A stretch of DNA of 64,000 nucleotides from Pyrinomonadaceae bacterium. Its GTDB lineage: Bacteria > Acidobacteriota > Blastocatellia > Pyrinomonadales > Pyrinomonadaceae. Below the pieces are notes generated by a model. That model saw only the letters and a list, made by a program, of their open reading frames with translations, was not told where the DNA came from and ran no database searches. Below, one piece after another: positions 11,124 through 64,000 of this stretch (position 1 is its first letter; every line of letters starts with the position of its first letter). The stretch covers positions 372,001 through 436,000 of the forward strand of contig JANQRU010000001.1 of assembly GCA_028284415.1 (NCBI GenBank), written 5' to 3'. The translations under genes and the position numbers were made by a program.

Positions 11124-11148
11124 AGATTCCTCCCAAAAAAATTTAGTT

Positions 11149-11162
11149 TTGTATCGATACAA
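11149..11162. promoter_or_regulatory. 14-bp perfect palindrome upstream of PqqD-knottin 3
   Basis: TTGTATCGATACAA is a perfect inverted repeat lying 26-39 bases upstream of the ATG at 11123. Its size and place, just before the ribosome-binding site, are those of a repressor operator. I see no second copy beside the other three paralogues. Confidence 0.4.
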
Positions 11163-11275
11163 CTTTTTGAACGGAATCACTTTTATTTCTTGCAGGTAAG
11201 TTATCAAAGATTCAATTGGCAGGCTTCGGATGGGTATGAAGATAAAGAGTGAAAATGTGAGGATGGTCTTTTTTA

Positions 11276-11316
11276 TTACTCTTCAACTAAACAATTTTAC
11301 TCTTTAACTAAACAAT
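11276..11316. repeat. Two-copy 21-bp tandem direct repeat
   Basis: TTACTCTTCAACTAAACAAT (11276-11295) and TTACTCTTTAACTAAACAAT (11297-11316) differ at one base and repeat with a 21-bp period, two helical turns. They lie between PqqD-knottin genes 3 and 4, so could serve as a protein-binding array or be residue of local duplication. Confidence 0.6.
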
Positions 11317-11339
11317 AGGATGCAGATTTCAAAAAATAA

Positions 11340-29147: not shown

Positions 29148-29210
29148 ATTTTATAATGAAAAAAAGTCCGTTTGTTAAACAAACGGGCTTTTTTTCATTA
29201 TAAAATTTAA
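29144..29210. terminator. 67-bp palindromic bidirectional terminator
   Basis: The segment reads almost the same on both strands. The core is GTCCGTTTGTT/AACAAACGGGC, flanked by A-run and T-run tracts, then by ATAATG and TAAAATTT and their complements. It contains the stop codons of both convergent genes (29145-29147 and 29207-29209), so it serves as a shared terminator. Confidence 0.93.
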
Positions 29211-29692: not shown

Positions 29693-29763
29693 TTTAACTC
29701 CTCTTAAGGAAAAAGCCTTCATATTAACTTACGGAATATTTAAACAAAAGTTCAGATTTCGTA

Positions 29764-43194: not shown

Positions 43195-43268
43195 TCTCTT
43201 CTCCAAAATATAAAAATCAGAAAAACTTACCCTGTTTGATTTTTTTGAATGAACCCTTCAAATGAATA

Positions 43269-44939: not shown

Positions 44940-44942
44940 AAC

Positions 44943-46817
44943 CTAACGTCTTCTTCTATTGCTTCTACGTTTTGTAGGTTTAGTTTTTACCTTTGGAGTG
45001 TATTTTTCTCCTAATAAGCCTAACTCTCTTGCTTTCAATACAACTCTAGCGGCTATAGGTGCAGCTGTTTTACTACCTCCGCCACCACTCTCAACAACAA
45101 CAGCGATCGCCACTTGTGGATTTTCTATCGGTGCAATAGAGATGTACCAGCTATCTGTTCTCAAGTACATTACAGGTGATTTATACTCTTCCAACTCACC
45201 ATCAGCATTGCGTCTTTTCTTTGTAACCGTTCTTAATTTACCAGTTTTCTTATCGTATAGAGGTGCTTTCTTTTCAGCTGAGCCGGTTTTTCCACCAGTC
45301 TTGACAATTCCGTTAACCCTTGCGAATGCCCCACGTGCAGTTCCAGCAGTTGGAACAAGTGCCATAATCTGTCGCATTTGAGCAGCCTGTCTTGGTGTGA
45401 CGACCTGACTATAAACTTCAGGTTTCAAGTCATATTCAATCTTAGGTTTCATCAATCTGCCACGCATATTTGCAGGTATTGCCGCGATCAGAGCCATCTG
45501 AAAAGGTGTCATTTGCCCAGCATAACCTTGACCAATTCCCTCTAAGCCAACATCATAAGCAGTAACTTTTTTGCCCACAACAATTGTTGATTGTCTTGGT
45601 GAAATGGAATTAGCGATCTTATCATCTGAAGCATTCCAAATATCTGAATAAAATCCAGCTCTTGTAGCATCTCCAGGAGTTTCTACAGGCAAAATACTTC
45701 CCTTTCTAGCTGTCTCCAAAATTCCAACTTTTCCAACTGAAATAGCAAGCTGTGCGAAATATTGATTACTTGAATACTGATAAGCTTCAGCAATTCCTAA
45801 AGGTCCGCAGCGCGAACAACTGCCACCATAATCTCGAATAGGTCTTCCTGAACCTCTCGGCAGAAAGCCCTCGGGTTTTGCAACGAAGACAGAATTTTGT
45901 TTATTGTTACGAAAAGCTGAGATCATCGTAAATGTTTTGAATGTTGAACCTGGCACATAATATTCGCGTGTTGCTCTGTTTAGTAGCGGTTTGTCTTTGG
46001 AATTCCCTTCTAATTTCAACCAATCATCTAAACTTTGAGCTTCGGATAAACTAAAAGATGGATTGGAATACATTGCTAATAAATCACCGGTTTGGGGATT
46101 AAGAACGACGATTGCACCTTTTCTTCCTTTTAGCTGATCAGCAATGTATGTTTGAAGTGCTCTATCTATTGTAACTCTTACATCACGCTTTTCTTCATCG
46201 GGTTGTTTTATTTTTGTTAGAACTTCCCAAGCAGTGGGCATCGGGTTAGCTTTTTTTCTATAAAGAGTTCTTTCTAATCCTGGTGTACCGCGTTCCGTAC
46301 CTAAAAGGTGTGCCATTTCTCTTTCAAGTGAAAAAGCACGCACAATATCACCATCAGAATCCTTTTTGTAATAAGCCAAGGCATTTCCAAGCTTGCCCGA
46401 ACGATCAAACATCCAGCCCCTTAAATTTGCGGCAGTTGTTCGACGGTATCTTAGATCCTTATAACTTAATTCCTGAAATTTTTCATTATTTTCGTCGGCG
46501 TAATATGTCCAATAAACATGAAACCCATAAACTCCAATAGCTAATATGAAAAAGACTGTTTGCCAAAGTCTTAAACTACGATTTGTTGCACGTGAACTTA
46601 ACTTTTTCCTGACTTCTTTTGGGAGGTTAATTTCGAAATTGAATCTAGGTCGGTTGAAATTGCCGATGAAGGATGTAAACAAGAAAAATACCAGTATAGA
46701 TAAACCGATTACGTAAACTACAGTCAAACCAGCTGGAGTTCTCTCAAGTATCTGCACTCCAAATAGTTTTTCGGGGCGGTATTGCTCCCAGTCAATTTGT
46801 AGTAAAAATAACAACAT
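44943..46817 (-). CDS. Class B penicillin-binding protein (PbpA-like transpeptidase)
   Basis: A 624-residue membrane-anchored transpeptidase that crosslinks peptidoglycan. Hydrophobic segments at about 20-45 and 78-100 lead to a periplasmic part. The active-site motifs are S291-T-F-K294 (GSTFKTF), the SSN triad YQYSSNQYF, and KTG in GKTGSAEKK. The Arg/Lys-rich C-terminus (KPTKRRSNRRRR) is odd for an exported domain. It sits four bases after the FhaA-like gene and before the SEDS gene, as in the actinobacterial pbpA neighbourhood. The dimerisation domain is short, like PbpA and unlike PBP2. Confidence 0.92.
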   Translation of the reverse strand: MLLFLLQIDWEQYRPEKLFGVQILERTPAGLTVVYVIGLSILVFFLFTSFIGNFNRPRFNFEINLPKEVRKKLSSRATNRSLRLWQTVFFILAIGVYGFHVYWTYYADENNEKFQELSYKDLRYRRTTAANLRGWMFDRSGKLGNALAYYKKDSDGDIVRAFSLEREMAHLLGTERGTPGLERTLYRKKANPMPTAWEVLTKIKQPDEEKRDVRVTIDRALQTYIADQLKGRKGAIVVLNPQTGDLLAMYSNPSFSLSEAQSLDDWLKLEGNSKDKPLLNRATREYYVPGSTFKTFTMISAFRNNKQNSVFVAKPEGFLPRGSGRPIRDYGGSCSRCGPLGIAEAYQYSSNQYFAQLAISVGKVGILETARKGSILPVETPGDATRAGFYSDIWNASDDKIANSISPRQSTIVVGKKVTAYDVGLEGIGQGYAGQMTPFQMALIAAIPANMRGRLMKPKIEYDLKPEVYSQVVTPRQAAQMRQIMALVPTAGTARGAFARVNGIVKTGGKTGSAEKKAPLYDKKTGKLRTVTKKRRNADGELEEYKSPVMYLRTDSWYISIAPIENPQVAIAVVVESGGGGSKTAAPIAARVVLKARELGLLGEKYTPKVKTKPTKRRSNRRRR

Positions 46818-46820
46818 TAC

Positions 46821-48125
46821 TTAAATTTCCCAATCTTGAGTTTCATCTATATTTATTTGCTTACTTTTTTTCTCGCTTTCAGATTCTGGTTGTGGCTTTA
46901 TCTCTTCGTGTTTTACTTTCTCATTTTCTAGTCTAGATTTTTTGTTGATTAAATCGTCTTCTTTCAAGCCATTTGATGAAGGCTGATTATTTTCATGTGT
47001 TTGATTCCAAGCTTCTGTTTTTGCAAGCTTCGGAGTATTGTCTTTTGCTTTTTCGTGCTTTGAATCTAACTTTGTTTGTTCCAACTTTGCAGCCTTTATT
47101 TCAGTAGAAACATCAGGTTTTGGTATGTGTATTTCAGAAGGATTTAGTTGATTAACCTTTTGTTTAGCTTCTATTGGGGTTTGCTCATCAAGCTCTACAA
47201 CTGCTTGAGTTGGCATAAGTTCACCATTTTGATGATTAATAGATTCTTCATAGATTTGCTCGGTAAACTGTTTTTCAAATACTACTTCTACATTGCCAAA
47301 TTTCACAGTTGTTTCCTCATTTATTGGAAAAGCTTTTCCGTATTTTATACGCTCACCATTGAGAAATGTTCCATTTGTTGAGCCCGTATCTGCGACCATC
47401 AATCCTTTTTCATTATTAAACACTAAAGAAGCGTGAACCTTCGATATACTCTGGTCAAAGATAGATAAATCGTTTTCTTTAAATCGTCCAACTGAAATCC
47501 TCTTTTTCTTTGAAAAGTTTAATACAACCTCTTTATCTTTGCCTTGTAAAGAATACTTTGCAAGATAAATCTCTTCTTGAGGTTGGACAACTGTTTGATC
47601 TTGACCACTCAAATTCACGGTTATTTTATTATCGCTAAGTAATTGATCAGTTCTTAAGTTCGGTAAAGTAACATTTATAGCAACCTCATCTTCTTCATTT
47701 TCAGCATATTTACCGAAACTAGCCAACATCCTGACGCCTTCCGTAAAGTAGTCAGTTTTTATCTCGATATTTAAAGGAGCATATGTGTGGTAAAGTTTGT
47801 CGTTTATGTGGTCAATAGCTGCCGCGTGAAGTTCATGCTCAAGTTTTTCTAATTCTTCATCTGAATCTGTCGAGAATTTATTCCATTGAATTTTTAACTT
47901 AATTATGTGCGGGACAAATTTTCCCCTGTCATCTAATTCTCTAACCTCAGAATCCAACAGAAATTTTAATTTCTCTACCAATTTACTAGTCGCAAGACTG
48001 CTGGAAGGATTCCAGCCTCGTCCAGTCAGTCTATCGAAAGTGTCGCCGACTTTTGTGAGTACCCCACCAATTAACCAGTCAAAGGAAAAAGATTTCTTCT
48101 TGGTTGTTTTTTTATCTTCTGACAT
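46821..48125 (-). CDS. FhaA-like protein: DUF3662 plus FHA domain
   Basis: A 434-residue cytosolic adaptor. The N-terminal DUF3662 domain (about 15-145; KLKFLLDSEVRELDDRGKFV and HIIKLKIQWNKFS) is that of mycobacterial FhaA. A central FHA domain (about 205-285; ISVGRFKENDLSIFDQSISK, TGSTNGTFLNG) binds phosphothreonine. A Lys/Glu/Pro-rich disordered tail follows. The start is the ATG at 48125; ten codons upstream a TTG is in frame but unlikely. In mycobacteria FhaA links Ser/Thr kinases to cell-wall synthesis. Being first in the unit with PBP, SEDS and PP2C genes suggests the same here. Confidence 0.9.
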   Translation of the reverse strand: MSEDKKTTKKKSFSFDWLIGGVLTKVGDTFDRLTGRGWNPSSSLATSKLVEKLKFLLDSEVRELDDRGKFVPHIIKLKIQWNKFSTDSDEELEKLEHELHAAAIDHINDKLYHTYAPLNIEIKTDYFTEGVRMLASFGKYAENEEDEVAINVTLPNLRTDQLLSDNKITVNLSGQDQTVVQPQEEIYLAKYSLQGKDKEVVLNFSKKKRISVGRFKENDLSIFDQSISKVHASLVFNNEKGLMVADTGSTNGTFLNGERIKYGKAFPINEETTVKFGNVEVVFEKQFTEQIYEESINHQNGELMPTQAVVELDEQTPIEAKQKVNQLNPSEIHIPKPDVSTEIKAAKLEQTKLDSKHEKAKDNTPKLAKTEAWNQTHENNQPSSNGLKEDDLINKKSRLENEKVKHEEIKPQPESESEKKSKQINIDETQDWEI

Positions 48126-48350
48126 AGATAAGCTGCAATATTTATTACCCCACAATTCTAAACAAAAAATGCAAAGTTTGGAAATATTTTTGAAAGAATA
48201 TTTTTTTTACTTTTTTTGTTAAAAAATGTTTAATTTTTTTGAAATAAGCATAACATTAGAAATTTATTATATCTGAAGGTTAAGTTTCCCACTACTTTAA
48301 CCCATAATCCTCAACCCACCTCGCAATTATTTCTACCTAGGAGAATGGAT

Positions 48351-49106
48351 ATGTCCGAATTTGACTATAAGAAGCAAATACATAATGAAAGTGGTTTCTC
48401 AATTGTAGAGTTACTGATCGTCTTAACAATCATAACTGTTATGACTACTATTTCATTTTTATATTTTGTAACAACTAAAGAGAAATACAAACCGGATGAT
48501 CAATCACTAAAACTCATTGATGTGATGCAAGAGGCTCGTCAAAGATCTTTAACACAAAGAGAAACTATGCGTGTTGAGATAGATTTGACTGACAACGTAG
48601 TTAGATTAATAGATGAAAACACCTCCAGCACAGCAAGCGATGACACAAAACTTAAAGAGTTTTCATTATTAGATGATGAAGACGTCAGAGTTGACGAGCG
48701 TCCTTCGCAAATAAATGATAATCCACCGGAAGAATTTCCAGTCCCATCAGCTTACTTTCGTCAAAGTATATATCCAAACAGCTTAGCTCATGACGTATGT
48801 ACCATAAGATTTTTAAGTAGTGGAAAAGTTGTTGACCAAGGTACAAACGAGGTCGGTGAAAATGCTGTCGCTTCAGGGCTCACATTACATATCTGGGCTC
48901 CTAAAAAATCAGATAATACTGAAGCTGAAATTGCAAGGGCAATTACAATTATTGGTGCGACAGGTTCTATAAGGCTTTGGGAATATGATGCTTCACTATC
49001 AACCTCCAACAAATGGAAAGATACGCGACGTACAAGTTTATTTGGTGGTCAGTCTACAGGTGGAAACAACAATTCTAATTCTAACTCTAACTCTAACACT
49101 AACTAA
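48351..49106 (+). CDS. Minor pilin/pseudopilin, FimT/GspH type
   Basis: A 251-residue prepilin-like protein. The peptidase site is ESGFSIVELLIVLTIITV, with the Gly before the Phe and the Glu at position 5 that are needed for methylated-pilin assembly. The C-terminus is low complexity, alternating Asn and Ser from a TCTAAC hexamer repeat. Start: an ATG at 48351 with GGAG seven bases upstream is preferred; one at 48345 would be only two bases away from it. It heads a four-gene minor pilin unit. The 225-base gap before it (48126-48350) is very A/T-rich, with no clear promoter. Confidence 0.9.
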   Translation: MSEFDYKKQIHNESGFSIVELLIVLTIITVMTTISFLYFVTTKEKYKPDDQSLKLIDVMQEARQRSLTQRETMRVEIDLTDNVVRLIDENTSSTASDDTKLKEFSLLDDEDVRVDERPSQINDNPPEEFPVPSAYFRQSIYPNSLAHDVCTIRFLSSGKVVDQGTNEVGENAVASGLTLHIWAPKKSDNTEAEIARAITIIGATGSIRLWEYDASLSTSNKWKDTRRTSLFGGQSTGGNNNSNSNSNSNTN

Positions 49107-49130
49107 CCCGAATAGTACGGCAATTTTGAT

Positions 49131-49715
49131 ATGAAATTTTATAAAAAAGTAAGTAAAAATGAAGAAGGCTTTTCATACATAGACGTGATGATAGCAATAG
49201 TTATCTTACTTGTTGGTGTACTGGCATTGGCTTCAGCGCTAACTGCAAATCTTGTTCGTTCATACGAGACAGACAAAAGAATAGTTGCTAAACAATTAGC
49301 TCTTTCAACTATTGAGTCAATTATTGCGGCAAGAAACATAAAAAGACCTGGCACAGTTGAGGGATGGGATTCTATTGGAAATGTCGGCAGTAATATAGTC
49401 AACGGTACTGCACAAGGAATATTCTTAACCGGGTGGACTCCAATCAGAGAAGACTTAGGCTGGGATGGCGTTGCTGGTACTGCAGATGATGCTTGTGCTG
49501 CCTCTGGACCATGTACTGTCACCAATAGACCCGCGAACAACAGTGAAGTAATGACAGGATTTGAACGAAGGATCGAAATTACAGACGTACAAGATTCTGA
49601 TCGTCCATCCCCCCCCAACCCAATTACCCGAAGGCGCATAACTGTAAAAATCAAGTTTTATATCAGCAATATTAGTCGTCAAGAAGAGGTTTCAACATTA
49701 GTAACTAATTATTAA
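49131..49715 (+). CDS. Minor pilin, PilV type
   Basis: A 194-residue prepilin-like protein with the cleavage motif EEGFSYIDVMIAIVILLVGVL. The fifth residue of the mature form is Asp where most pilins have Glu. A DGVAGTADDACA stretch near residue 120 resembles one in the PilW-type protein that follows. It lies between FimT-like and PilW-like genes, as minor pilin genes do in type IV pilus systems. Minor pilins prime pilus assembly and may sit at the tip. Confidence 0.87.
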   Translation: MKFYKKVSKNEEGFSYIDVMIAIVILLVGVLALASALTANLVRSYETDKRIVAKQLALSTIESIIAARNIKRPGTVEGWDSIGNVGSNIVNGTAQGIFLTGWTPIREDLGWDGVAGTADDACAASGPCTVTNRPANNSEVMTGFERRIEITDVQDSDRPSPPNPITRRRITVKIKFYISNISRQEEVSTLVTNY

Positions 49716-49732
49716 TGTAACAGGAAATAATT

Positions 49733-50845
49733 ATGAAGAGTCCTTTCACATATATATTGAATAAATCCAAATCTATACACCAACAACAAAGTGGATTTAG
49801 CGTTATGGAATTGTTGATTGGTATGGTTATTTTTCTGGTTGTTACAGGTTCTATTTATGGGCTTTTATACATGGGAAGTATCTCAAAAAACCGTGCAAGC
49901 AGAAGGACTGATGTCTTAAAAAATGCACGTGCGGCTATACATCTTATAGGTCGCGATGCTCTTAATGCGGGGCTTCATTACCATCAAAAAGGTGCAATCG
50001 TTCCTGATGATTTTATTTCAAATACGTTAGGTACTCCTCAGGATGCAGACAATGATAGAGATATTCTAACCTCTGTTATTGCAGGGGATAACCTGTTCAA
50101 TAATGATCTACAAAGCAGTAGCACTGAAAAAACTGACACTATTGCTTTTGCATATGGAGATCTAAACTTCAATAACGGCGACACAATTGATTTAAAGGAG
50201 TCAAAGCAAGGGGCATCAGCATCGACAACCAGATTGGAATTTAAAGATGCACAAACCTCAAATGTGAATCCTTACGATCTAATGCTTGTTGAAGCTGGTA
50301 GTACGCAAGTTGCTGTTATGGCTTCCAGCATTATTGATAGTAAAAATATTGATTTGGCTTTGAATGATCCACTGGGAATTAATCTAGCCCACAATGGTTC
50401 GGGAGTTAACCGAACATTACTATTTGAGTGTAACCCACCCTCTGATGTGGATGACTGCACAAACTCAATTACCTCATTAAAACGCTTCTATTGGGTTAGT
50501 TACAAAGTTAAACAAGACGGAACTTTAGTAAGAATTGTTTATGGAAATAATACTGGTCGTCCATTTGATGAGCAGATACAAGAACAACCTCTAGCCTATA
50601 ACGTAAAAGACCTCCAATTTAAGTACGTTCTGGAAGATGGGACGGTTACTGATAATCCAGCAGCTGGTCCTGACGGTACAGTCGGAACTGCTGATGATGA
50701 ACCTAATAATTTTAACTTAATCAGACAAGTAACTGTAACTATCACAGTTCAATCGACCGAATTAGACGAACAAACCAAAAAACCAGAAACAATTGAGTTA
50801 GATGCAACTTTCAGCGTAAGAAATTTGCAATATGACGTTGGTTAA
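49733..50845 (+). CDS. Minor pilin, PilW type
   Basis: A 370-residue prepilin-like protein with the site QQSGFSVMELLIGMVIFLVV, which keeps the Glu at position 5 of the mature form. The rest is a beta-rich extracellular domain with Asp-rich loops (PQDADNDRDILT near residue 100, PDGTVGTADDEPN near 315). PilW-type proteins are larger minor pilins that help pilus initiation. Its gap to the PilX-like gene is about 22 bases, with GAGGATAAG as ribosome site for the next gene. Confidence 0.88.
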   Translation: MKSPFTYILNKSKSIHQQQSGFSVMELLIGMVIFLVVTGSIYGLLYMGSISKNRASRRTDVLKNARAAIHLIGRDALNAGLHYHQKGAIVPDDFISNTLGTPQDADNDRDILTSVIAGDNLFNNDLQSSSTEKTDTIAFAYGDLNFNNGDTIDLKESKQGASASTTRLEFKDAQTSNVNPYDLMLVEAGSTQVAVMASSIIDSKNIDLALNDPLGINLAHNGSGVNRTLLFECNPPSDVDDCTNSITSLKRFYWVSYKVKQDGTLVRIVYGNNTGRPFDEQIQEQPLAYNVKDLQFKYVLEDGTVTDNPAAGPDGTVGTADDEPNNFNLIRQVTVTITVQSTELDEQTKKPETIELDATFSVRNLQYDVG

Positions 50846-50867
50846 ACAACTAAGAGGATAAGAAAAT

Positions 50868-53723
50868 ATGAAAAGAAGAGTATTAAATATTTTTCGTACA
50901 TTTTTATACGGCAAGAATCAAAGCAGCAAAAAAGCCATGGAAAACCAAAATGGTTCAGCAATTATTATTGCACTCTTAGTTATGGTTTTATTAATGGGTT
51001 TTGTTGCCCTTGCTGTTTCAAGGACTTCAAATGAAACAATTGCTTCGACTAATGATGCTGAAGAAACAAAAGCATTTGAAGCTGCCCAAGCCAGCTTGGA
51101 AGTAATGACTCATAACTTCGACAAGATTTTTGATTATAAGTTAAATCCTGATACGAATGACTTGAATTCTATTATGTCAAAAAATCCTGATGGATTTACT
51201 ACCGATTATGATTTTAATCAAAACATAAGTCGTACAAGAACTGCTGAACAGGTTGTGATGACAGGACAGCAATTCCAAGGATTACACGCACTACGAGATG
51301 AATGGCAGATAGATACTACCGCAACTAATAAATATAGTGGTGTCCAAGTTGCTCTTCGACGTAGATTTTTTAACAACTTAGTGCCTATTTTTCAGTTTGG
51401 AATCTTTTATGAAGATGATCTCGAATTTCACCCTGGTCCCAGGTTTGATTTTGGTGGAAGAGTTCACTCAAACCGTCACCTATTCATGAAAGCAAATAAT
51501 CTGTATTTCTCATCTAAAGTAACGGCAACAGGTGAAATCTTCACAGACGTTATGAGAAACGGTAACAGCTCAGGTACTTACACAAATAAAATTAAAATTA
51601 AGAATGCTTCAGGTCAATATGTTTCTTTGAACTACAACATGGGAAGTGTATTGAACAGTGTTGCTAATGGTCCTGCTGTAATTAATGAGGCTGATATGCC
51701 TGTTGGCTATGCAAATGCAAACTGGGCAGCAAATGAAGTTTTGTTCCAAGGTAATCTTTTAGCAAATCAAACAAGACTTGATCTGCCTTTAAGAATTGCA
51801 AGTCAACTTGGTGGTAATGCACTTGATTACATCGAACTTGTCAAACGCGGTAAAACAGTAGGTGATTTATATAACGATGGAACTGGAACCGTTTCATCCC
51901 CAAGCATAGTTCCCGTAAATAGCACGTCAGCTGACAGCATAATTACAGCACAGGAAAGATATTACAATAAAGCAGGTATCAGAATTACTTTAGCCGATAG
52001 TAAAGCTAAGCTTCCAGGATGTGCTTCCGGAGTTGGGACATCAGCAGTTACTACTGCTTGTGGAATCAGATTGGACGGTGCAGCGAGTGGAGATGGTAGC
52101 AATCCTAGCGGCGGAAATGCAAGGGGTTATCAACCAAAGACAATGAAAGACGGTTATCAAGCAACCAAAGTTAACGGTGAAAGATTTTACCGTGGCTCTG
52201 GAGTAGAGACTTGGATAAAAATTGAAGCTGTTGGATGGAATCAATCTACTAATTCAGTCGGTGCATTTGACATAACTGAAGACGTTTTGAGTCTCGGTGT
52301 AACTGAAGCTGCTCCGATCATTAATGAAAGTGTAACTAAATTTGCGATAGATGAAAGTGGATATTACTCAAATAATATAGATACCCGCTCAATAATAAAA
52401 CTGCAAAGATTTATTTTCGATGATGGTGTAGTTGAATCAAGTTCAGATTACATTTCTGATGAAGAATGGAACAGTAAGGATTACAACTTCATTGTTGCAG
52501 AAGACGACAGTGGAGATGTGGATGATGGTACTTTCGGTGCGTTTAGCGGTGACCATGCTCAACACATGAAAGATGCAATTGTTGAAGGTTACACTGATCC
52601 AAAGGTTGTTCCATTTCCTATAAAAATGTTTGATGCCAGAGAAGGCATCTATAATGACGGTATGAACCTAAGCTCAGCTTATGGAAGTAATGTTCCATCG
52701 GCAGGCGTTATGAGTGTTTTAGACATTGATGTCGCTAACTTGAGAAAGTTCCTCAATGGTAATTTTGATGCCAATATGCCGAACGCAACACTTTTCCACG
52801 CTGCAATGGGAAGAAGTTTAGCTGGTACTGATATTCCTGACGCTAATGGCTGGGTATTATACGTGTCGGATCGTCGTGGAGACTATGATTTCGATGGCGA
52901 ATACGACATGGAAGATATTTACGGTAATAATGACGGCATTCTTCAATATGGTGAAGACGTCAATAATAACGGTACTCTAGAGGCTGATTATTCAAATGAA
53001 GCTGTCAGATACACAGGTTCCGGAAATCATGTTCCAAAAAGTATAGCTGCAACCATTGATCACACATATTATCGAAGAGCTGTAAGACTGATAAATGGAA
53101 CACAATTGCCTGGTCAATATGACAGTTCAACACCGACTAATACAAAAGGTTTTACCGTTGCTTCTGAAAATGCTATTTATACTTTAGGAAACTACAACGC
53201 AACAGGAATTAGCTCGGTTGGAAACCCTACACCTTCAACAAGTTATTTACCACAAAACACATTCGATCATGTTCCCGCATCTATAGTAGGTGATGCAGTA
53301 ACTATTCTTTCAAATAAATGGACAGATGGTAATGGCTTTAAGAATGCTTTTAATAAAAATAATCGCACAGCAAGTGAAACCACTGTTCGTTACGCGATTA
53401 TGTCTGGAGATGCTCGATCAAGTCTGATCGAAGCGGGCGAGCCTAACCAAGGTGGTGGTGACGTACAGTTAACAGGTGGAGTTCATAACTTTAAGAGAAC
53501 ACTTGAGAAATGGAGTGGAAAACGCTTGAACTACGCTGGTTCACTCATCAATCTATACAATGCTCGCAACAATACTGCTGCATTTAAGTGTTGTTCAAAA
53601 GTTTACAGTCCTCCAACTCGTAACTGGGTTTTCGATACGTCTTTCTTAGATCCAAATCGTTTGCCACCAGGGACTCCTTATTTCCAAACAATTCAATTAA
53701 CAGGCTTCCAAAGATTGAATTAA
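50868..53723 (+). CDS. PilX-like giant minor pilin with EF-hand-like loops
   Basis: A 951-residue protein, several times longer than ordinary PilX. Near residue 28 it has NQNGSAIIIALLVMVLLMGF, the PilX-type N-terminal helix, here without the usual Glu. The large extracellular remainder (about 50-951) is beta-rich. Near residues 667-705 it carries an EF-hand-like loop, DYDFDGEYDMED, that fits D-x-D-x-D-G-x-x-D-x-x-D. NNDG and DVNNNGTLEAD follow, suggesting Ca2+ binding. Two cysteines near the C-terminus (FKCCSK) could be disulfide-bonded. It may be a pilus-tip adhesin in place of PilY1, which I do not see. A strong terminator follows. Confidence 0.8.
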   Translation: MKRRVLNIFRTFLYGKNQSSKKAMENQNGSAIIIALLVMVLLMGFVALAVSRTSNETIASTNDAEETKAFEAAQASLEVMTHNFDKIFDYKLNPDTNDLNSIMSKNPDGFTTDYDFNQNISRTRTAEQVVMTGQQFQGLHALRDEWQIDTTATNKYSGVQVALRRRFFNNLVPIFQFGIFYEDDLEFHPGPRFDFGGRVHSNRHLFMKANNLYFSSKVTATGEIFTDVMRNGNSSGTYTNKIKIKNASGQYVSLNYNMGSVLNSVANGPAVINEADMPVGYANANWAANEVLFQGNLLANQTRLDLPLRIASQLGGNALDYIELVKRGKTVGDLYNDGTGTVSSPSIVPVNSTSADSIITAQERYYNKAGIRITLADSKAKLPGCASGVGTSAVTTACGIRLDGAASGDGSNPSGGNARGYQPKTMKDGYQATKVNGERFYRGSGVETWIKIEAVGWNQSTNSVGAFDITEDVLSLGVTEAAPIINESVTKFAIDESGYYSNNIDTRSIIKLQRFIFDDGVVESSSDYISDEEWNSKDYNFIVAEDDSGDVDDGTFGAFSGDHAQHMKDAIVEGYTDPKVVPFPIKMFDAREGIYNDGMNLSSAYGSNVPSAGVMSVLDIDVANLRKFLNGNFDANMPNATLFHAAMGRSLAGTDIPDANGWVLYVSDRRGDYDFDGEYDMEDIYGNNDGILQYGEDVNNNGTLEADYSNEAVRYTGSGNHVPKSIAATIDHTYYRRAVRLINGTQLPGQYDSSTPTNTKGFTVASENAIYTLGNYNATGISSVGNPTPSTSYLPQNTFDHVPASIVGDAVTILSNKWTDGNGFKNAFNKNNRTASETTVRYAIMSGDARSSLIEAGEPNQGGGDVQLTGGVHNFKRTLEKWSGKRLNYAGSLINLYNARNNTAAFKCCSKVYSPPTRNWVFDTSFLDPNRLPPGTPYFQTIQLTGFQRLN

Positions 53724-53749
53724 TTTTAACTAAAAACCTATGCAGGTAA

Positions 53750-53779
53750 GGGATGCAGAAACTGCATCCCTCTTTTTTT
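53750..53779 (+). terminator. Rho-independent terminator of the pilin unit
   Basis: GGGATGCAG (53750-53758) pairs with CTGCATCCC (53762-53770), loop AAA, followed by TCTTTTTTT. Confidence 0.95.
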
Positions 53780-53838
53780 ATTTGCAGAGACAGAACTTTG
53801 CATCCTAAAAATCGTATGAAGTTTATAGAGTATTTCTC

Positions 53839-53847
53839 TGCTATAAT
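53839..53847 (+). promoter_or_regulatory. Extended -10 promoter of the Ser/Thr kinase unit
   Basis: TGCTATAAT at 53839-53847 is a perfect extended -10 element, 21 bases before the ATG at 53869. The transcript would have a very short leader (about 15 bases). Confidence 0.6.
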
Positions 53848-53868
53848 GTAAGCTTATTACGATTTCTT

Positions 53869-55371
53869 ATGAAAGAATTGGCTCTAAAAAACAGTCGTTT
53901 GGACGATAGATATGACATACGCCAAAGATTAGGACGTGGAAGTTATGCAGAAATTTTTGTCGCCAAAGACATATTAGCCTCAACTCAATCAACTCATCGT
54001 TTTGTTGTAATTAAAGCTCTCAATGTTTTTATGCAAAACGATCTTGATCTTGATCTTGAAAGAACACTTGTCGAAAACTTTCAAAATGAAGCAATCGCCC
54101 TTGATAGAGTCCGTCATCCCAATGTCATCAGCCGTTTAGGGCACGGCACAGCTAAAGATTTACATGGCACAGTCTTTCATTATTTAGTTTTGGAATACTT
54201 ACCTGGAGGTGATCTAGCTAAACTTTGTAGAAAAAAAGCCTTAGAATTACAACAAGCTTTAGATTACGTTGAGCAGGCTTGTGCTGGGCTTGCACATGCT
54301 CATAAAAATGAAATTATCCACCGAGATATAAAACCTCAAAATTTACTTTTAACTGAAGATAAAAAAATAGTAAAAATAGCGGATTTCGGAGTCGCGAGAG
54401 TTACTCAAAATGATGCTCCGATCACACGGGTTGGAACTAATATCTATGCCCCGCCTGAACATAGTCCTATGTTCTCAGGCGATACGGATAAACTAGTTTT
54501 TTCGGAACTTACACCTGCGGCTGATATTTACTCTTTAGCAAAATCAACATATGTATTAGTCACAAATGAATCACCAAGATTTTTTGCTAACCAACCGATC
54601 ACAGAACTTCCCCATTCGATGAGGCAAAAAGTTTGGGCAAATGAATTTTTAAAAGTTCTAACCAGAGCAACACAAAAAGATCCTCGTAACAGGTATCAGG
54701 ACGTTAATGAATTTTGGCAGGATTTATCGAAGCTTAGGTACGTTGGTGAAACAAGCGGAATTGAGATAGCTACAAAAGTGTCAGTTCGAAACAGTACTAC
54801 TCCGAAACCTCAGATAACGAAAGGCTACACACCCTTAGCACCACAAAAACCTGAATTTGATACATCAAAAGAGTTAAATCGTAAATTTGAAACCAAGGCT
54901 TTAGATAAAAAAATCGCAGTCAACATTAATCGAAATCCCTTAATTGAACCACCAAGAAGAACTCCTACGGCAACTGCAGAGAATCAAGACTTAAACAACA
55001 AAGAAATTATTGATATACAAAAACCTAAACCTAAAAGAAAATATTTGCGATATTTTGCTATTTTTCTTTTACTCATAGGAATTTTTGCAGTAAGTTTATA
55101 TGGCACATATAATTACATCTTAAGTAGAGGATCGGTCACAACGAATCCTGAAATAATTGGGGTTGCGAAAACCAATATAAATTTAAGACCTGAACCAACA
55201 ACGCAGAAGCCACCAATCGGGCTTATAACTGAAAATTCGAGACTTAGAATTATTAGCAAAAAAAACAGGTGGTATGAAGTTGTTATAATCAAGCAAGGTA
55301 CGCTCAGAGATAACTCTCAGGAAAATAAAAAAGGCTGGGCATACGGTAAATATATAGAAATCGAAGAATAG
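53869..55371 (+). CDS. Membrane Ser/Thr protein kinase with extracellular SH3-like domain
   Basis: A 500-residue Hanks-type kinase. The kinase domain (about 15-295) has the glycine loop LGRGSYAEIFVAKD, an invariant lysine in VVIKALN, the catalytic HRDIKPQN (D153), and DFGVAR. A disordered linker leads to a membrane helix (about 390-413, YFAIFLLLIGIFAVSLYG). The outside part is a bacterial SH3-like domain (about 430-498; TNINLRPEP, IGLITENSRLRIISK, W). It is transcribed with the DUF3662-FHA gene ten bases downstream. With the PP2C and FHA genes at 41581-48125 it makes a writer, eraser and reader set for phospho-threonine signalling. Confidence 0.94.
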   Translation: MKELALKNSRLDDRYDIRQRLGRGSYAEIFVAKDILASTQSTHRFVVIKALNVFMQNDLDLDLERTLVENFQNEAIALDRVRHPNVISRLGHGTAKDLHGTVFHYLVLEYLPGGDLAKLCRKKALELQQALDYVEQACAGLAHAHKNEIIHRDIKPQNLLLTEDKKIVKIADFGVARVTQNDAPITRVGTNIYAPPEHSPMFSGDTDKLVFSELTPAADIYSLAKSTYVLVTNESPRFFANQPITELPHSMRQKVWANEFLKVLTRATQKDPRNRYQDVNEFWQDLSKLRYVGETSGIEIATKVSVRNSTTPKPQITKGYTPLAPQKPEFDTSKELNRKFETKALDKKIAVNINRNPLIEPPRRTPTATAENQDLNNKEIIDIQKPKPKRKYLRYFAIFLLLIGIFAVSLYGTYNYILSRGSVTTNPEIIGVAKTNINLRPEPTTQKPPIGLITENSRLRIISKKNRWYEVVIIKQGTLRDNSQENKKGWAYGKYIEIEE

Positions 55372-55380
55372 GAGAAATCG

Positions 55381-56322
55381 GTGAGCGTTTTAGACAAAGT
55401 AAGACGTTGGATTGATGGAGAAAGTGCAGAGCTTGTTTTAGAAGAAGCCGCACGCGATGCTCAAGTAAAACCTAGAAGCAAAGCCGAAGAATTCATTGTA
55501 AAGATTGCCAAGGCTGTTGAGGAAGTAATGCAAAGAGAGCTTGTTCCGCTCCCGCAGGGCACTACTATCATTCCGACTGAATATATAATCTTTTTAAGCG
55601 AGGAAGATGATAAAGAATGGCAAGGTGCTAAACGCCGCGGTTTAGAACAAGGTCTTTACCATGTTTTAGCTGAAAGAGCTAAAGAAATTGCGGGCAAGAA
55701 AAAGCTTGAAACTCAATCATTTGCTGTTGAACTACGCGTTGATGGCACTTTAGAAAAAGAAGAAATTCGTGTTCAACACAGCTGGGAAGAAAGCTCTTCA
55801 CCAAAAACCAGTGTGCATGCACGCAAAAAGCCAGTTCAACCTCCTAAACAAAATCCAACACCTCCTGTTCAATCAACACCTCCTCCACCTCCTCCGAATT
55901 TCACACAAAATCCAGCTACTCAACAAAATTATCAACAGCCTACAAATGTTGGATACCAGACACAAAACCCAAATGATGTAGAGGAGATGACTCGCGTCAG
56001 TAACCGTAAAATTGCACTTTATAATTTAGAAATTTGGAAAAATGGTGTAAGACAAAATGTTTTACCAATCTACCAAAGAGAAATAACCATCGGACGCGGT
56101 TCAAAATCAAAACCTGTTGATATAACTCTGGCTGGTGACCCTGAAATAAGTCGCCGACATTTAATGTTGATTTTGGATAAACTTGGTAATTTTTCAATCA
56201 TTAATGAAGGACGTAATCCAACTATCTTAAATAATGTTGAATTACCAATGGGGCAAAGAATACAAGTTTCACCGGGTCAGCATTTCCTTGTTTGTAGTTA
56301 TATGTTGAGAATTCAACCCTAA
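55381..56322 (+). CDS. Second DUF3662 plus FHA domain protein
   Basis: A 313-residue adaptor starting at GTG with AGGAG six bases upstream. DUF3662 occupies about residues 5-135 (LVPLPQGTTIIPTEYIIFLS, RRGLEQGLYHVLAE). A Pro/Gln-rich linker with QSTPPPPPPNF follows. The FHA domain is at about 205-310 (ITIGRGSKSKPVDITLAG, EISRRHLMLIL, N-rich turn at the phosphate site). It is a paralogue in layout of the FhaA-like protein at 46821-48125 but pairs directly with the kinase gene, so it is a likely kinase substrate or partner. Confidence 0.9.
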   Translation: MSVLDKVRRWIDGESAELVLEEAARDAQVKPRSKAEEFIVKIAKAVEEVMQRELVPLPQGTTIIPTEYIIFLSEEDDKEWQGAKRRGLEQGLYHVLAERAKEIAGKKKLETQSFAVELRVDGTLEKEEIRVQHSWEESSSPKTSVHARKKPVQPPKQNPTPPVQSTPPPPPPNFTQNPATQQNYQQPTNVGYQTQNPNDVEEMTRVSNRKIALYNLEIWKNGVRQNVLPIYQREITIGRGSKSKPVDITLAGDPEISRRHLMLILDKLGNFSIINEGRNPTILNNVELPMGQRIQVSPGQHFLVCSYMLRIQP

Positions 56323-58711: not shown

Positions 58712-59380
58712 CTAAACAAGTCTGTTCTTTAACGCTTTTGCTACAGCTTCAGATTTTGAGTGAACCTGAAGCTTTTCGTAAATATGTTTTATATGAAATG
58801 ATATCGTATTTACGCTTAAATTAAGTTCCGCTGCTGCAGTCTTGTAATTATGTCCTTCAACAAGCATCTTCAGAATGCGGGTTTCATGTGGAGTGAGATC
58901 ATAGTCAACTTGTTTAGGCGGAGGGCTTTCGCGAAATAATTGCATCACTCGCATTGCAATTTCTGGTGACATTGGAGCACCACCACTTTGGACTTCACGA
59001 AGACATTCAAGAATTTTTGGCATCGGTGTAGATTTAAGCAAATATCCGCTTGCCCCTGCACAAATTCCATCAATTATCCGATCATCATCATCATAAACGC
59101 TAAGAATTAAGATTGATAAATTTGGATATTTTTGTTTGAGAATCTTTATTCCCTCAATTCCGCTCATTTTAGGTAAGCCAATATCATTTAAGACAACGTC
59201 AGGCAAATTTTTGGGGAGTTCTTCTAATCCCTCTTCCATCGAACGATAGCTTCCGGTACATTCAAATCCTTCAGCACCACCTATTAATCTGGATAGACCA
59301 AAACGGATTTCTTCGCGGTCTTCAACAATAGCCACACGAATAGGCTTTTCTTGCTTACTATTTTGGGCGTTCACTTTCAT
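58712..59380 (-). CDS. NarL/LuxR-family response regulator
   Basis: A 222-residue two-component regulator. The receiver has the acidic pair E20-D21, phosphoacceptor D66 (VVLNDIGLPKMSG; the residue before the Asp is Asn) and Lys in YLLKSTP. The LuxR-type helix-turn-helix (about 155-215; LTPHETRILKMLVEGHNYKT, AELNLSVNTISFHI) binds DNA. It lies downstream of the Reg_prop histidine kinase on the same strand with a 67-base gap and is presumably its partner. Confidence 0.95.
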   Translation of the reverse strand: MKVNAQNSKQEKPIRVAIVEDREEIRFGLSRLIGGAEGFECTGSYRSMEEGLEELPKNLPDVVLNDIGLPKMSGIEGIKILKQKYPNLSILILSVYDDDDRIIDGICAGASGYLLKSTPMPKILECLREVQSGGAPMSPEIAMRVMQLFRESPPPKQVDYDLTPHETRILKMLVEGHNYKTAAAELNLSVNTISFHIKHIYEKLQVHSKSEAVAKALKNRLV

Positions 59381-59447
59381 TTATTTTTTGGGGCTTAGAA
59401 AATTCTCTATTAGATTAAATCAGAATGTAAAAGCGTAAACCACATAT

Positions 59448-62400
59448 TTAGGTAGTTTTTGAAAATGATAAACCACCTAATCTTCTTGGCAGCTTGAGTG
59501 TAACCGTAGTGCCTTTGCCTATTTCACTGGAAATATCAAAAGTTCCGCCCATTTCTTCAGCTCTTTTCTTCATGTTATTAAGACCATTCCCACGCCGTAA
59601 ACCATTTAACTCAAAGCCTTTACCATTATCAGTCACCCTCAATAAGATGCCATCGGAATTTCTCTTTAACTCAATTTCGACTTTAGTGCAATCTGAATAT
59701 TTAACACAATTATTTAAGCTTTCCTTAAAAACTAAATATATTTGTCTTCTTAGATCAACATCAAGTTTAATTTCCCGATCATCCTTAGGTGCATTGAAGG
59801 TAAATTCAATATCTTTAGCTGACAGAACTTCATTCGCAAAACGCCTCATTCGTTGCACTGTGTCCCGCATATTATCCCGATTTGGATTGATTGACCAAAC
59901 CATATCGCTCATTGAACCTACAACCTCTCTGGAAGTATCAGCAATGGATTGAAGAGCATTTTTCTCATCTTCGTCCGCATCCTTTTTACTTTGTGCTAAA
60001 ACCTCACTGAGTATTGAGATTTTGGAAAGACTTGCTCCAACATCATCATGTAAATCAGTTGCAATTCTTGTTCGTACTCTTTCAATCTCAAGCATCCTGC
60101 GATAACGATTCCGATATAAATATGCAATGAAAGCTATAATTGACAATATTGCAAGCAAATACAGCAAAAATGCCCACCAAGTTAACCACCAAGGCTGATT
60201 GATAATGAACGGTATTTCGAGAGGTTTGCTTACATTCCCACTCGCATCTTTTGCCCAAATTTTAAAGACATATTCTCCGCTTGGGATAAATGTAAATTCC
60301 CTTCTGGGTTCTCTTGTCCATTCAGTTGGTTCATCCTCCAAGTTAATTAATTGAGTTCTGTATAATGTGCCAGACTCTCTAAAATTAGTCGGCATTACAT
60401 ACTCAAATGTAAGATTATTTTCGCTGTAACTTATGGTTGAATTCGGGATTAGTTTTCTTTTTTCACCATCAACAAAAACAGTTTGAAGAAATAACGGGTC
60501 AGCCTTTTCATCTTTGAATTCTTTATCAAGGTCTAAGATTGCAACTCCACCAACTGTTCCGATCCAAACGCGATTTTTACTATCAATAAAACCTGCTCCG
60601 GATGTGCATTCATTATTGGGTAAACCATCTTTGGTTGTAAAAAAATAAGCTTGAGATTTTGTAATATCGCCTGATTTATCAGGAACTATCCTCGAAACAC
60701 CTCTGTTGGTTGTTACATATATTCTTTGATTAGAATCTTGAAAAATACTATAGACAGTATCACTTGGAATTAAATTGCTATTTTCTGTTGTGAGAATTTG
60801 AATTTCAGAATCCGGTTTGTCCAAATCCAAAATGGCAATACCACCTCCACCAGTGCCAACCCACAACTCGCGTTTATTACCGTACTTAATTTCATTTGCA
60901 CTGTAAGTTCTGTTAGTCAGTAATCCCTTATTCTTATCAAAGACTTTCCAATTCTCTCCATCTTTCTTGATAAGCCCTGCATTGTAAGAAGCTATCCACA
61001 GAGAATTTTCATCATCTGACGTAGAAAAGCTACCTCTAAAATATTCATCTGGTAAGCCTGCAGATGTGTCAATTAACTTTACCTCTTCGCCATTTTTTAC
61101 AAATAATCCCAAATTTGTTGAGAGTAAAATTGCTTTTTCTCCATTTGCATTTTTATGTTCTGCTATTCCCCATATTTCTGTTTGTCTTTCAAATTTTCCT
61201 AAATACTCATTTTTCCAAACACCATTTTTCCAACTTACCAATCCTGTTTCTGTTCCCACATATAAAACTTCTTCTCCTGTGTTGTCTTTCATTACAAAAA
61301 GCGATTGAACAAAATTATCTTTAAGTTTGTTATTACTGTCATAGTGTGCCCATTTGCCTTCAGAAAAGCTAGCTAATCCACCACCATAAGTTGCAATCCA
61401 ATATGTTGGCTCTCCATTCGAAGATGTTGTTTCAGCAGCTGTAAATACAATGTTATTTTTTAGCCCGTTTTCATTATTTAAAGTTCTCCAATTACTTCTC
61501 TCTAACCTCGCCACACCACTTCCAAGATTTGAAATCCATACAGAACCATCAGGTGCCCCCGTTGGTAAAAGTTCATGAACTAAATTGCTGGGAAGACCAT
61601 CTTCCTTATCTAGAAAGAACCATTGACCATCTTCAAAATAAGCAAGTCCTGCACCATCTGTACCAACCCAAATTGTTTCAGTTCCATCTTTTTTTACCGA
61701 TTTTCCTAACCCACGAACCGTTTTAGTTAAAACTTCTGATACATCACCAAATGATTCCCATTCCCCATCTTTAAATCTCAAAATTCCTTTATCAGTTGCA
61801 GCCCAAATAATTGATTTACCGTTATCGTCAATGACTTCAAGTAGTCTAAAGACAACTTTTGCAGGAAAGCCATTTTTTTCGGTGTAAGTTTTCTTTTCAT
61901 TGCCTTTCCAAACTGCTATCCCGCCATATGTTCCAATCCAAATTGATTTTTCTCCGCTTTTATCAACAGTCTCAATAACACATCTGACACGTTTGTCTGG
62001 TAAACCGTCTTTTTCATCGAAATTTTCAATTTTATTACCCTTTAGTTTGCTGACACCGCTTCGCCGACCGATCCAGATCACCTGTTCTCCATCATTATCG
62101 AAGCTTTCTAATAAAACTCTTGTCTCATTGCTTGCCAAGCCTGAATCCGTGTCAAAAGTCTTCCATTCATCGTCTTTTAAACGATGCACCCCACCATTTG
62201 TAGTGGCAAACCAAATGCTGCCATCTTTAGCTGCCATAATATCCTGAATATAATTTGAAACAGCTCGATTAGGCATATTTACTACCGTAAAATCATACCC
62301 ATCAAAATATGCAGCACCGTCCTGAGTGCCAAACCAAATGAAACCGCGTCCATCACGCTCCATACTCATGACAGCATTGACTGGCAATCCATCGACACTT

Positions 62401-62549
62401 GTAAAAGTGGTTAGAGAGGGTTTCGCATGGTCATAAATATTTTTTGACGTGATGTTTTTTGCGTAGGCAGGTTGAATTAGGACTGTTAGATATACAATCC
62501 CAGACAAAAACAAAGGGAAAAATTCATAAAATGAGTGGGGTAATCTCAT
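59448..62549 (-). CDS. Reg_prop/Y_Y_Y sensor histidine kinase
   Basis: A 1033-residue membrane kinase. A signal peptide (about 1-30) is followed by a long periplasmic beta-propeller pair built of Reg_prop repeats. These have the recurring forms W-x-G-T-x-G-G and D-G-L-P-x-N, e.g. GFIWFGTQDGAAYFDG. A Y_Y_Y domain comes next (about 695-770). After one membrane helix (about 785-808) lies a HisKA_3 domain with H834 in TDLHDDVGASLSK. A HATPase with DNGKGF and GNGLNNMKKRAEEMGG ends the protein. Relatives often sense polysaccharides; the ligand here is unknown. It is the probable partner of the LuxR-type regulator at 58712-59380. Confidence 0.95.
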   Translation of the reverse strand: MRLPHSFYEFFPLFLSGIVYLTVLIQPAYAKNITSKNIYDHAKPSLTTFTSVDGLPVNAVMSMERDGRGFIWFGTQDGAAYFDGYDFTVVNMPNRAVSNYIQDIMAAKDGSIWFATTNGGVHRLKDDEWKTFDTDSGLASNETRVLLESFDNDGEQVIWIGRRSGVSKLKGNKIENFDEKDGLPDKRVRCVIETVDKSGEKSIWIGTYGGIAVWKGNEKKTYTEKNGFPAKVVFRLLEVIDDNGKSIIWAATDKGILRFKDGEWESFGDVSEVLTKTVRGLGKSVKKDGTETIWVGTDGAGLAYFEDGQWFFLDKEDGLPSNLVHELLPTGAPDGSVWISNLGSGVARLERSNWRTLNNENGLKNNIVFTAAETTSSNGEPTYWIATYGGGLASFSEGKWAHYDSNNKLKDNFVQSLFVMKDNTGEEVLYVGTETGLVSWKNGVWKNEYLGKFERQTEIWGIAEHKNANGEKAILLSTNLGLFVKNGEEVKLIDTSAGLPDEYFRGSFSTSDDENSLWIASYNAGLIKKDGENWKVFDKNKGLLTNRTYSANEIKYGNKRELWVGTGGGGIAILDLDKPDSEIQILTTENSNLIPSDTVYSIFQDSNQRIYVTTNRGVSRIVPDKSGDITKSQAYFFTTKDGLPNNECTSGAGFIDSKNRVWIGTVGGVAILDLDKEFKDEKADPLFLQTVFVDGEKRKLIPNSTISYSENNLTFEYVMPTNFRESGTLYRTQLINLEDEPTEWTREPRREFTFIPSGEYVFKIWAKDASGNVSKPLEIPFIINQPWWLTWWAFLLYLLAILSIIAFIAYLYRNRYRRMLEIERVRTRIATDLHDDVGASLSKISILSEVLAQSKKDADEDEKNALQSIADTSREVVGSMSDMVWSINPNRDNMRDTVQRMRRFANEVLSAKDIEFTFNAPKDDREIKLDVDLRRQIYLVFKESLNNCVKYSDCTKVEIELKRNSDGILLRVTDNGKGFELNGLRRGNGLNNMKKRAEEMGGTFDISSEIGKGTTVTLKLPRRLGGLSFSKTT

Positions 62550-62593: not shown

Positions 62594-63154
62594 TCAATTA
62601 TTTTGTGAAAAAGTTTTTTTATCTAAAGTTCTGGTTGTTTCTTCGGTAACACTAACTGGCTGTAAATCATCTGAGTCACGCCAGTTTACTTGCGGTGGAT
62701 TGTACTCAGTCGAAATTGGTTCGGATTGTTGAGGAGGCAAAGCTTTGTTATTAACAGGTTTACCTAATAGATCTTTTTTAACCGTGTCAACAATTCCTTC
62801 GTTTTCTAAAGTTGGAACGCCTGATTGAAAGACCAATGCATAAATCATTCTGAGAATCCCAGCAAGAAAAGTAAGTATTGCAGCCATCCCAACAATATAC
62901 CCTTCACCATTAAACATCGAAGTTAAAATACCAAGTATCGGAACTATCACACCACCTGAAAGAAAAAGTAGTCCACCTTGTTTTAATCCTCTTCGGCGAG
63001 GAGACATAGCTTCAGGATGCTTTTGATCAATTACCTCTTTTGGCAAGCCACCATTTTCGACAACTTCAGCCATTCCCGTCATCGAAAAACCACAACGCGA
63101 GCAAAATCTAACATCTTCCTTTATTTGTTCTTGACTACAACGAGGACAATACAT
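62594..63154 (-). CDS. Zinc-ribbon membrane protein A
   Basis: A 186-residue protein: N-terminal zinc ribbon CPRCSQEQ then CSRCGF, two hydrophobic helices (about 58-78 and 80-105, with LLFLSGGVIVPILGIL) and a polar C-terminus. The C-terminus contains LQPVSVTEETTRTLDK, a short motif shared with the next two proteins. A GGAGTAAAA site precedes the ATG. Its topology is probably ribbon-in, tail-in. The role is unknown; the Thr-rich tail is a candidate phosphorylation site for the Ser/Thr kinase system. Confidence 0.75.
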   Translation of the reverse strand: MYCPRCSQEQIKEDVRFCSRCGFSMTGMAEVVENGGLPKEVIDQKHPEAMSPRRRGLKQGGLLFLSGGVIVPILGILTSMFNGEGYIVGMAAILTFLAGILRMIYALVFQSGVPTLENEGIVDTVKKDLLGKPVNNKALPPQQSEPISTEYNPPQVNWRDSDDLQPVSVTEETTRTLDKKTFSQNN

Positions 63155-63170
63155 TTTTACTCCTGTTTTG

Positions 63171-63767
63171 TTATTGATTATTTAAATATCTTGTCTGTTC
63201 TTCTTCTTTTTCTTTTTCTTTTTGTAAAAGCTTTGTCGTGCCTTCTGTTACGCTGCCAGGTTGAACTAATTCTCCTGTGTCGTAAGACTTCCAACTTCCG
63301 GCAGATGGTGATACAAAGTCCTGTGCAGATTGTGCTTGCTGAGGAGGTAAAGCATTTTGATTAGTTTGCTGCCCTGTTAAATTTTGTGGAGTTGATTGTT
63401 GGTTAGCCAGCACGGCAGAATCAGAAAGTGGTTTAGGTGCACTTCCCAAGAAGAATAATGAGAAAAGTAAGATTAATATAGAGCTAAAAACGCCAAACAC
63501 AGCAGAAATTGCTGATAATTCATCAACATCTAATACTCCCCAAAATGCGGCTCCAAAAGGTACGAACAAAATAAACCAAAAAATACTGAAAAAGATTCCA
63601 TTTTTTCTGGTAAAAAGTTTACTTTTTTTGCTGTAAAGTTCTTCTAATTGAGGTAGGGTTCCACCATTTGATAGAACTTCCGCGACCAGCCCCATTGGTA
63701 GCCCGCATCGAGAGCAAAATCTTAGATTTCCTGAATTTTGTTGTTCTCCACAGCGTGGACAATACAT
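63171..63767 (-). CDS. Zinc-ribbon membrane protein B
   Basis: A 198-residue paralogue of the previous protein: CPRCGEQQ, CSRCGL, two hydrophobic helices (about 60-80 and 88-112) and a tail with VQPGSVTEGTTKLLQK. It ends in a Lys/Glu tract encoded by a T/C-rich repeat. The start is the ATG at 63767 with AGGAG upstream; a GTG two codons earlier is also in frame. It lies 16 bases upstream of protein A and downstream of a third copy, forming a tandem array. Confidence 0.75.
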   Translation of the reverse strand: MYCPRCGEQQNSGNLRFCSRCGLPMGLVAEVLSNGGTLPQLEELYSKKSKLFTRKNGIFFSIFWFILFVPFGAAFWGVLDVDELSAISAVFGVFSSILILLFSLFFLGSAPKPLSDSAVLANQQSTPQNLTGQQTNQNALPPQQAQSAQDFVSPSAGSWKSYDTGELVQPGSVTEGTTKLLQKEKEKEEEQTRYLNNQ

Positions 63768-63782
63768 AGACACTCCTATATT

Positions 63783-64000
63783 TTATGAATTCTTGTTCAA
63801 TAATTTTGTCGTTTCTTCGGTTACACTCCTGACTTCAACCAAATCATTTGTATCATACTTACCTATTTTTTCATTTGGTGAGATATAGTCACTCGTTGGA
63901 TTTTCTCTTGAATTTAAAGTTCGCATTTCAGGTGTCGTTTCAAAATTATTTGATTCGTTAAATTGTAATTCTGATTCATTGGATTTATAAGGCTGTTTGA
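63783..64000 (-). CDS. Zinc-ribbon membrane protein C (5' part outside window)
   Basis: The last 72 codons of a minus-strand gene, read back from the stop at 63783-63785. The visible tail is polar and ends VEVRSVTEETTKLLNKNS, the same motif that closes proteins A and B. I therefore assign it to the same family by its tail alone; the zinc ribbon and membrane helices would lie beyond the window. The gap to protein B is 15 bases. Confidence 0.65.
   Translation of the reverse strand, partial: KQPYKSNESELQFNESNNFETTPEMRTLNSRENPTSDYISPNEKIGKYDTNDLVEVRSVTEETTKLLNKNS

Follow-up and report, generated by a model that had tools for sequence, protein, structure and literature searches.

A class-specific threonine tail motif on zinc-ribbon-like and DUF4870 membrane proteins: a candidate phosphothreonine docking array

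Background

FHA domains are described as strictly requiring phosphothreonine (pThr), with pTxx[ILV] as ligand (PMC8786283); the pThr+3 rule for these domains has been called controversial (PMC4037201). In M. tuberculosis, pThr sites that depend on PknA tend to have acidic residues at –1 and –3 to –6 and Leu or Val at +3 (PMC7164672). Among the closest systems, GarA and OdhI of Actinobacteria carry an ETTS site in a disordered N-terminal tail, with an acidic residue preceding Thr-Thr (PMC12321487, PMC2784874). The FHA domains of OdhI, GarA and DgcB read the N-terminal pThr of their own protein; in DgcB of Bdellovibrio, an FHA-GGDEF protein, this Thr has a hydrophobic residue at +3 (PMC6733907). 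In Agrobacterium, the cytoplasmic pThr14 of the inner-membrane protein TssL recruits the FHA protein Fha (PMC3953482).

The window analysed here (one stretch of 64,000 nucleotides, which also contains a Ser/Thr kinase and two FHA proteins) holds at its right edge three tandem genes whose products share a tail. That such tails form a class-specific phosphothreonine docking array, with a Thr phosphorylated by a kinase and read by FHA domains, is the leading explanation, though in our estimate its odds are only even.

Three tandem genes with a common tail

The genes and their tail cores are as follows.

62594..63154, minus strand: ZnR1, a zinc-ribbon-like two-TM protein with tail, 186 aa (ORF; Pfam zinc-ribbon matches below curated cut-offs)
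62618..62653, minus strand: ZnR1 tail core SVTEETTRTLDK (ORF translation)
63171..63767, minus strand: ZnR2, 198 aa from ATG, with tail (ORF; AlphaFold model)
63219..63254, minus strand: ZnR2 tail core SVTEGTTKLLQK (ORF translation)
63783..64000, minus strand: ZnR3, C-terminal part; the gene continues outside the window (C8:435786-436322) (ORF)
63792..63827, minus strand: ZnR3 tail core SVTEETTKLLNK (ORF translation)

The ORFs bear out the three tails as a sequence-only reading had quoted them. In all three proteins an N-terminal CxxC...CxxCG is followed by two hydrophobic helices, then by a polar linker and the tail; only the last 71 residues of ZnR3 lie inside the window, its zinc ribbon falling beyond the edge. 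The tails have the common consensus SVTE-x-TT-[KR]-x-L. This shared motif is real, but it lies near the C-terminus and not, as had been proposed, at its end, since the ten-residue core is followed by 9 further residues in ZnR1, 17 in ZnR2 and 4 in ZnR3. The regions before the tails, said to differ, are indeed divergent, with 30% identity to ZnR2 for both ZnR1 and ZnR3 in alignment A3, but two elements recur in them, LPP and a T-x-[ED]-[LI] site about 14 residues before the second core Thr. Most of the shared tail residues are encoded by different codons in the three DNA copies, and the constraint therefore acts on the protein. Because the codons differ and a tail profile finds ten proteins in the genome, the likeness of the three tails is not due to chance.

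The resemblance to the Pfam zinc-ribbon models PF13240, PF13248 and PF10571 lies in the N-terminal CxxC...CxxCG, but the matches stop short of the tail and score below cut-off. ZnR1 reaches 21.1 bits for PF10571 (cut-off 29) and 19.8 for PF13240 (cut-off 25), and the top zinc-ribbon model for ZnR2, PF09297, gives 22.9 bits (cut-off 24.8), so that 'zinc-ribbon-like' is the safe name. NCBIfam gave no near-cut-off match, matches of the zinc-ribbon family to solved structures were weak (best RpoM, E 0.0028), and a literature search returned no paper joining Blastocatellia or Pyrinomonadaceae with a zinc ribbon and one listed paper joining DUF4870 with phosphorylation. In the AlphaFold model of ZnR2 a Cys-rich N-terminus is accompanied by two long helices, and confidence is low in the linker and tail (mean pLDDT about 51-73 per ten residues before the final helix).

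A shared operon with the sensor kinase and the regulator that lie downstream (58712-62549) was considered and rejected as a general partnership, because the sensor kinase adjoins the tail cluster only within the genus (the window and L028, with a short weak match in L025). Elsewhere in the window, a protein at 29207-29722 combines a zinc ribbon with a LITAF-like ribbon (Pfam), and its linker contains YSWKTDEL, which resembles the tails' upstream T-x-[ED]-L site. At 8094-11906 lie four short ORFs, each with a PqqD-like start and a hydrophobic stretch and most with a Cys-rich C-terminus; two oxygenase-like ORFs sit among them, and the group may be a peptide-modification cluster.

Conservation of the tail core

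The pattern [ED]xTTxx[LF] was found near the end of 42 of 45 zinc-ribbon ORFs extracted by their ribbon. Leaving out L018, which had been fetched by the tail pattern, 41 of the 44 ORFs taken by homology carry the tail, a count that is not fully blind as the homology query contained its own tail. The three exceptions (L026, L027 and L035) have degenerate tails. Of the 42 tails, 41 have the S and 40 the V of the core. The first T is present in 37 and is otherwise V, I or P; the acidic position is E in 34 and D in 8; both Thr of TT are there in all 42, as the pattern required; K/R follows in 34; and the last position is L (39) or F (3), L/F again being required. The residue between the acidic position and TT varies (G, N, H, S, E and others). 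The ETT core of the sequence-only reading is thus not general: the actual form is E-x-T-T, with the second Thr fixed. When the pattern allowed Ser at both places, TT was found in 97/97 matched tails and Ser in none (101 ORFs, 4 without a match; many of the loci had been fetched by their tail). In three zinc-ribbon tails recovered with profile A2 (L163, L169 and L171) the first Thr is A, A and E, and the second Thr is retained.

Alignment A3 comprises 41 proteins taken from L001 and L024-L052. Apart from the ribbon cysteines, no block in it is better conserved than the core, whose mean column entropy is 0.97 bits versus 1.36 for the zinc ribbon and 2.93 for the linker. The second core Thr is preceded at –3 by an acidic residue and followed at +3 by Leu/Phe (L in 35 and F in 3 of 40 proteins). 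The upstream T-x-[ED]-[LI] site has Thr in 37/39 proteins and Ser in 2/39; one of the two is ZnR1 of the window, which counts against a pThr-FHA reading.

Spread of the tail

Homology search of the window's own genome returned six members at E <= 1.7e-6. A search with profile A1, built from 34 tails, gave ten tail proteins in the same genome at E <= 1.1e-4 (plus one chance-like match in a 41-residue frame); the motif is more widespread than the sequence-only reading had noted. Two of these proteins, of 304 and 316 residues, have an extra N-terminal domain ahead of the ribbon. A1 also matched in 40/40 relatives at E <= 10. Among 297 genomes of the phylum (E <= 0.05), the tail was found in 29/32 genomes of the same class, which we take to be Blastocatellia, with one named relative, a Pyrinomonadaceae MAG (L123), as the basis. 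Outside the class, where unlisted genomes were placed by inference from table order, 10/265 genomes matched, all at E 0.0039 to 0.048, about the chance level at this threshold. Beyond chance, the tail is limited to one class among these 297 genomes. Overall, it is almost certainly a functional linear motif that is specific to the class.

The 20 proteins fetched with profile A2 comprised ten zinc-ribbon tail proteins, one zinc-ribbon protein with an internal motif (L162, SVTEVTTRRL directly after the ribbon and before the hydrophobic stretch), one FHA protein (L167) and eight weak matches in folded enzymes or odd frames (L156, L157, L164, L165, L166, L168, L172 and L174) that were judged to be chance. 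Some tail proteins are longer: L012 and L013 (C2:808059-809825) and their relatives L054-L058 are of about 300 aa, with a further N-terminal domain, and in L054 and L055 the motif is present twice in tandem. Several other long tail proteins terminate in a second TTRxL-like site.

The motif in DUF4870 proteins

The motif is also present in an unrelated and often adjacent family. A DUF4870 membrane protein (PF09685) adjoins one tail gene and carries the motif in its N-terminal region (PPPSVTEEQTRRFDE in L080; ATETEDQTRKFDE in the window's own genome, where the protein scores 27.7 bits for PF09685, above the cut-off of 25). Its N-terminal array runs T-x-[ED]-[LIF] and then SVTExxT[RK]x[FL], with no zinc ribbon; the array is complete in several DUF4870 proteins, such as L138 (ETGEIPPSSVTEEQTRRFE). 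A homologue was found in 36/60 relatives. Thirty proteins were read and 29 gave usable N-termini (L152 was dropped); T[RKQ]x[LFIY] is kept in 28 of the 29, L148 having TRRM. The first core Thr can be replaced by Q, E or P in this family, and the second Thr is therefore the essential one. A tail gene adjoins DUF4870 in 12/30 loci, versus 0/49 FHA and kinase loci; at a thirteenth DUF4870 locus, L135, the tail reads SVTVNTTRTLD, with the acidic residue missing.

These placements bear on two rival explanations. One could expect the tail to be an intramolecular, structural element that folds onto its own zinc ribbon or helices, and most carriers do have a ribbon. However, DUF4870 proteins lack it and carry the motif at the opposite end, the linker and tail of ZnR2 are modelled at low pLDDT, and L054 and L055 have tandem copies; we consider this explanation very improbable. 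Scarcely less improbable is that a protease or assembly factor reads the tail as a signal for processing, turnover or sorting: such a signal could be short, clade-limited and near the terminus in many paralogues, as the tail is, but the motif occurs at either terminus and also between ribbon and helix, and its spacing to the terminus varies.

Threonine and the +3 position

Counts that are not independent, owing to related sequences and few fixed sites (T-x-[ED]-[LI]; DUF4870 DTNPLD and TRxF), gave Thr with L/I at +3 in 80/302 cases in zinc-protein linkers outside the core (shuffled mean 33.7; 0/1000 shuffles reach 80) and in 62/261 in DUF4870 N-termini (13.7 shuffled; 0/1000 reach 62). Since orthologues share the fixed sites, these counts locate the signal and give no number of origins. 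Ser is at background in both sets (37/353 versus 37.3 shuffled, and 8/176 versus 9.1), as is Thr in the control, polar segments of neighbour ORFs (67/618 versus 65.6). The core itself has Thr, not Ser, and a hydrophobic residue at +3 of its second Thr. Judged from the sequences, the bias matches FHA ligands and PknA-dependent sites.

FHA proteins and kinases

The FHA protein matched by profile A2, L167, has the N-terminus MSETEQQTRRLDQ and the domains FHA and DUF4388. In A4, an alignment of 12 FHA-DUF4388 proteins from ten genomes and one family, the variable N-terminal tail before the FHA domain keeps one Thr in 12/12, with L (11) or I (1) at +3. Such proteins with an N-terminal T-x-x-[LI] were seen only in one family of the class. 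Foldseek placed the FHA domain of L167 near those of OdhI, GarA and DgcB, among others. In the AlphaFold monomer of this protein, residues 1-21 are disordered (below pLDDT 50) and the N-terminus is left undocked, which speaks neither for nor against docking. No SVTE-type N-terminal tail was seen in FHA proteins of the window's own genome (16/20 loci parsed).

The sequence-only reading had linked the tails to the Ser/Thr kinase and the two FHA proteins of the window. No evidence was found for this link: these genes lie 6-16 kb from the tail genes, a scan of 70 neighbourhoods of tail and DUF4870 genes by regular expression gave neither a kinase nor an FHA signature, and the kinase linker shows no such signal in orthologues. 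The linker motif FETKALDKK was rejected, as orthologues do not keep it, and orthologous linkers (24 used of 29 loci) have Thr with L/I at +3 in 11/96 cases versus 8.6 shuffled, with no bias. On present evidence the kinase and the two FHA proteins are bystanders only. Co-occurrence of FHA and tail gave no signal because FHA is present in 46/47 genomes; the tail-less class members G234, G293 and G038 retain 16, 28 and 22 FHA matches, and there is therefore no co-loss.

Two further gene groups were observed. At 41581-56322 of the window, PP2C-like, FtsW/RodA-like and PBP-like genes adjoin an FhaA-like FHA gene, followed by the Ser/Thr kinase and a second FhaA_N-FHA gene, an order reminiscent of the pstP-rodA-pbpA-pknB-fhaA cluster of actinobacteria (Pfam named FHA, FhaA_N and the kinase, with FhaA_N sub-cut-off in the first FHA protein; the others were named by reading). 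In the same genome, L182 and L191 (C8:151640-155570) comprise a zinc-ribbon FHA protein close to a kinase with zinc ribbon and FHA; these are possible candidate readers or writers of the tails.

The absence of kinase and FHA signatures from the 70 loci speaks against a pThr-FHA reading and for its main rival, a docking peptide that works without phosphorylation, in which a class-specific adaptor is bound directly by the tail and packing is the reason for keeping Thr. Confinement of the motif to one class, while FHA genes occur across the phylum, points the same way, as does the conservation of S, V and the acidic residue, which exceeds the needs of a pThr site. Against direct docking of this kind stand the Thr-specific +3 bias at a second, separate site and the T-x-x-[LI] that also precedes FHA domains. 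We consider it rather unlikely.

A possible docking array

The proposal of the sequence-only reading that the tails are phospho-dependent docking motifs thus stands in part: TT in 97/97 tails, the Thr-specific +3 bias and the pre-FHA T-x-x-[LI] agree with it, but the likeness to the GarA ETT site and the link to the window's kinase and FHA proteins do not carry over. In a phosphothreonine docking array, a two-helix hairpin would anchor the protein in the membrane, with zinc ribbon and disordered tail both cytoplasmic. A Hanks-type kinase would phosphorylate the second Thr of SVTExTT[KR]xL (acidic –3, Leu/Phe +3) and probably also the Thr further upstream, in T-x-[ED]-[LI]. The phosphorylated tails would then bind at least one FHA-domain protein and draw it to the membrane, where about ten paralogues and the DUF4870 proteins may compete for, or assemble, the same readers.

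A bolder reading, which we hold somewhat less likely than not, is a class-wide phosphothreonine tag system. A bipartite Thr array on at least two unrelated membrane families, with an echo ahead of FHA domains, would bring shared FHA readers to some ten anchors per cell. If true, it would resemble the common phospho-tags of eukaryotic signalling. To our knowledge, most bacterial FHA domains have few known partners; if many proteins of one class share a fixed peptide that can be searched for, FHA targets would become predictable. The shared tail would also give uncharacterised zinc-ribbon and DUF4870 proteins a testable role, and would be a clear bacterial case of a short linear motif spread across unrelated proteins.

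Comparison with known systems

With the GarA/OdhI site the tails have in common a disordered setting and Thr-Thr preceded by an acidic residue, and the FHA-DUF4388 proteins have an analogous T-x-x-[LI] before their FHA domain. The likeness to the GarA ETT is only loose, however: the site is ETTS in GarA/OdhI and E-x-TT here. Moreover, the GarA/OdhI family has the site and its FHA reader in one polypeptide, whereas the present tails are on membrane proteins without FHA, and Pfam gave no FHA match in ZnR1 or ZnR2. DgcB resembles the tails in its N-terminal Thr with a hydrophobic +3, but there an enzyme recognizes itself, while the tails are a tag common to many proteins. TssL is comparable as a membrane protein whose cytoplasmic pThr recruits an FHA protein, as the tails would if phosphorylated; it differs in being a single protein of one machine, without a shared motif family.
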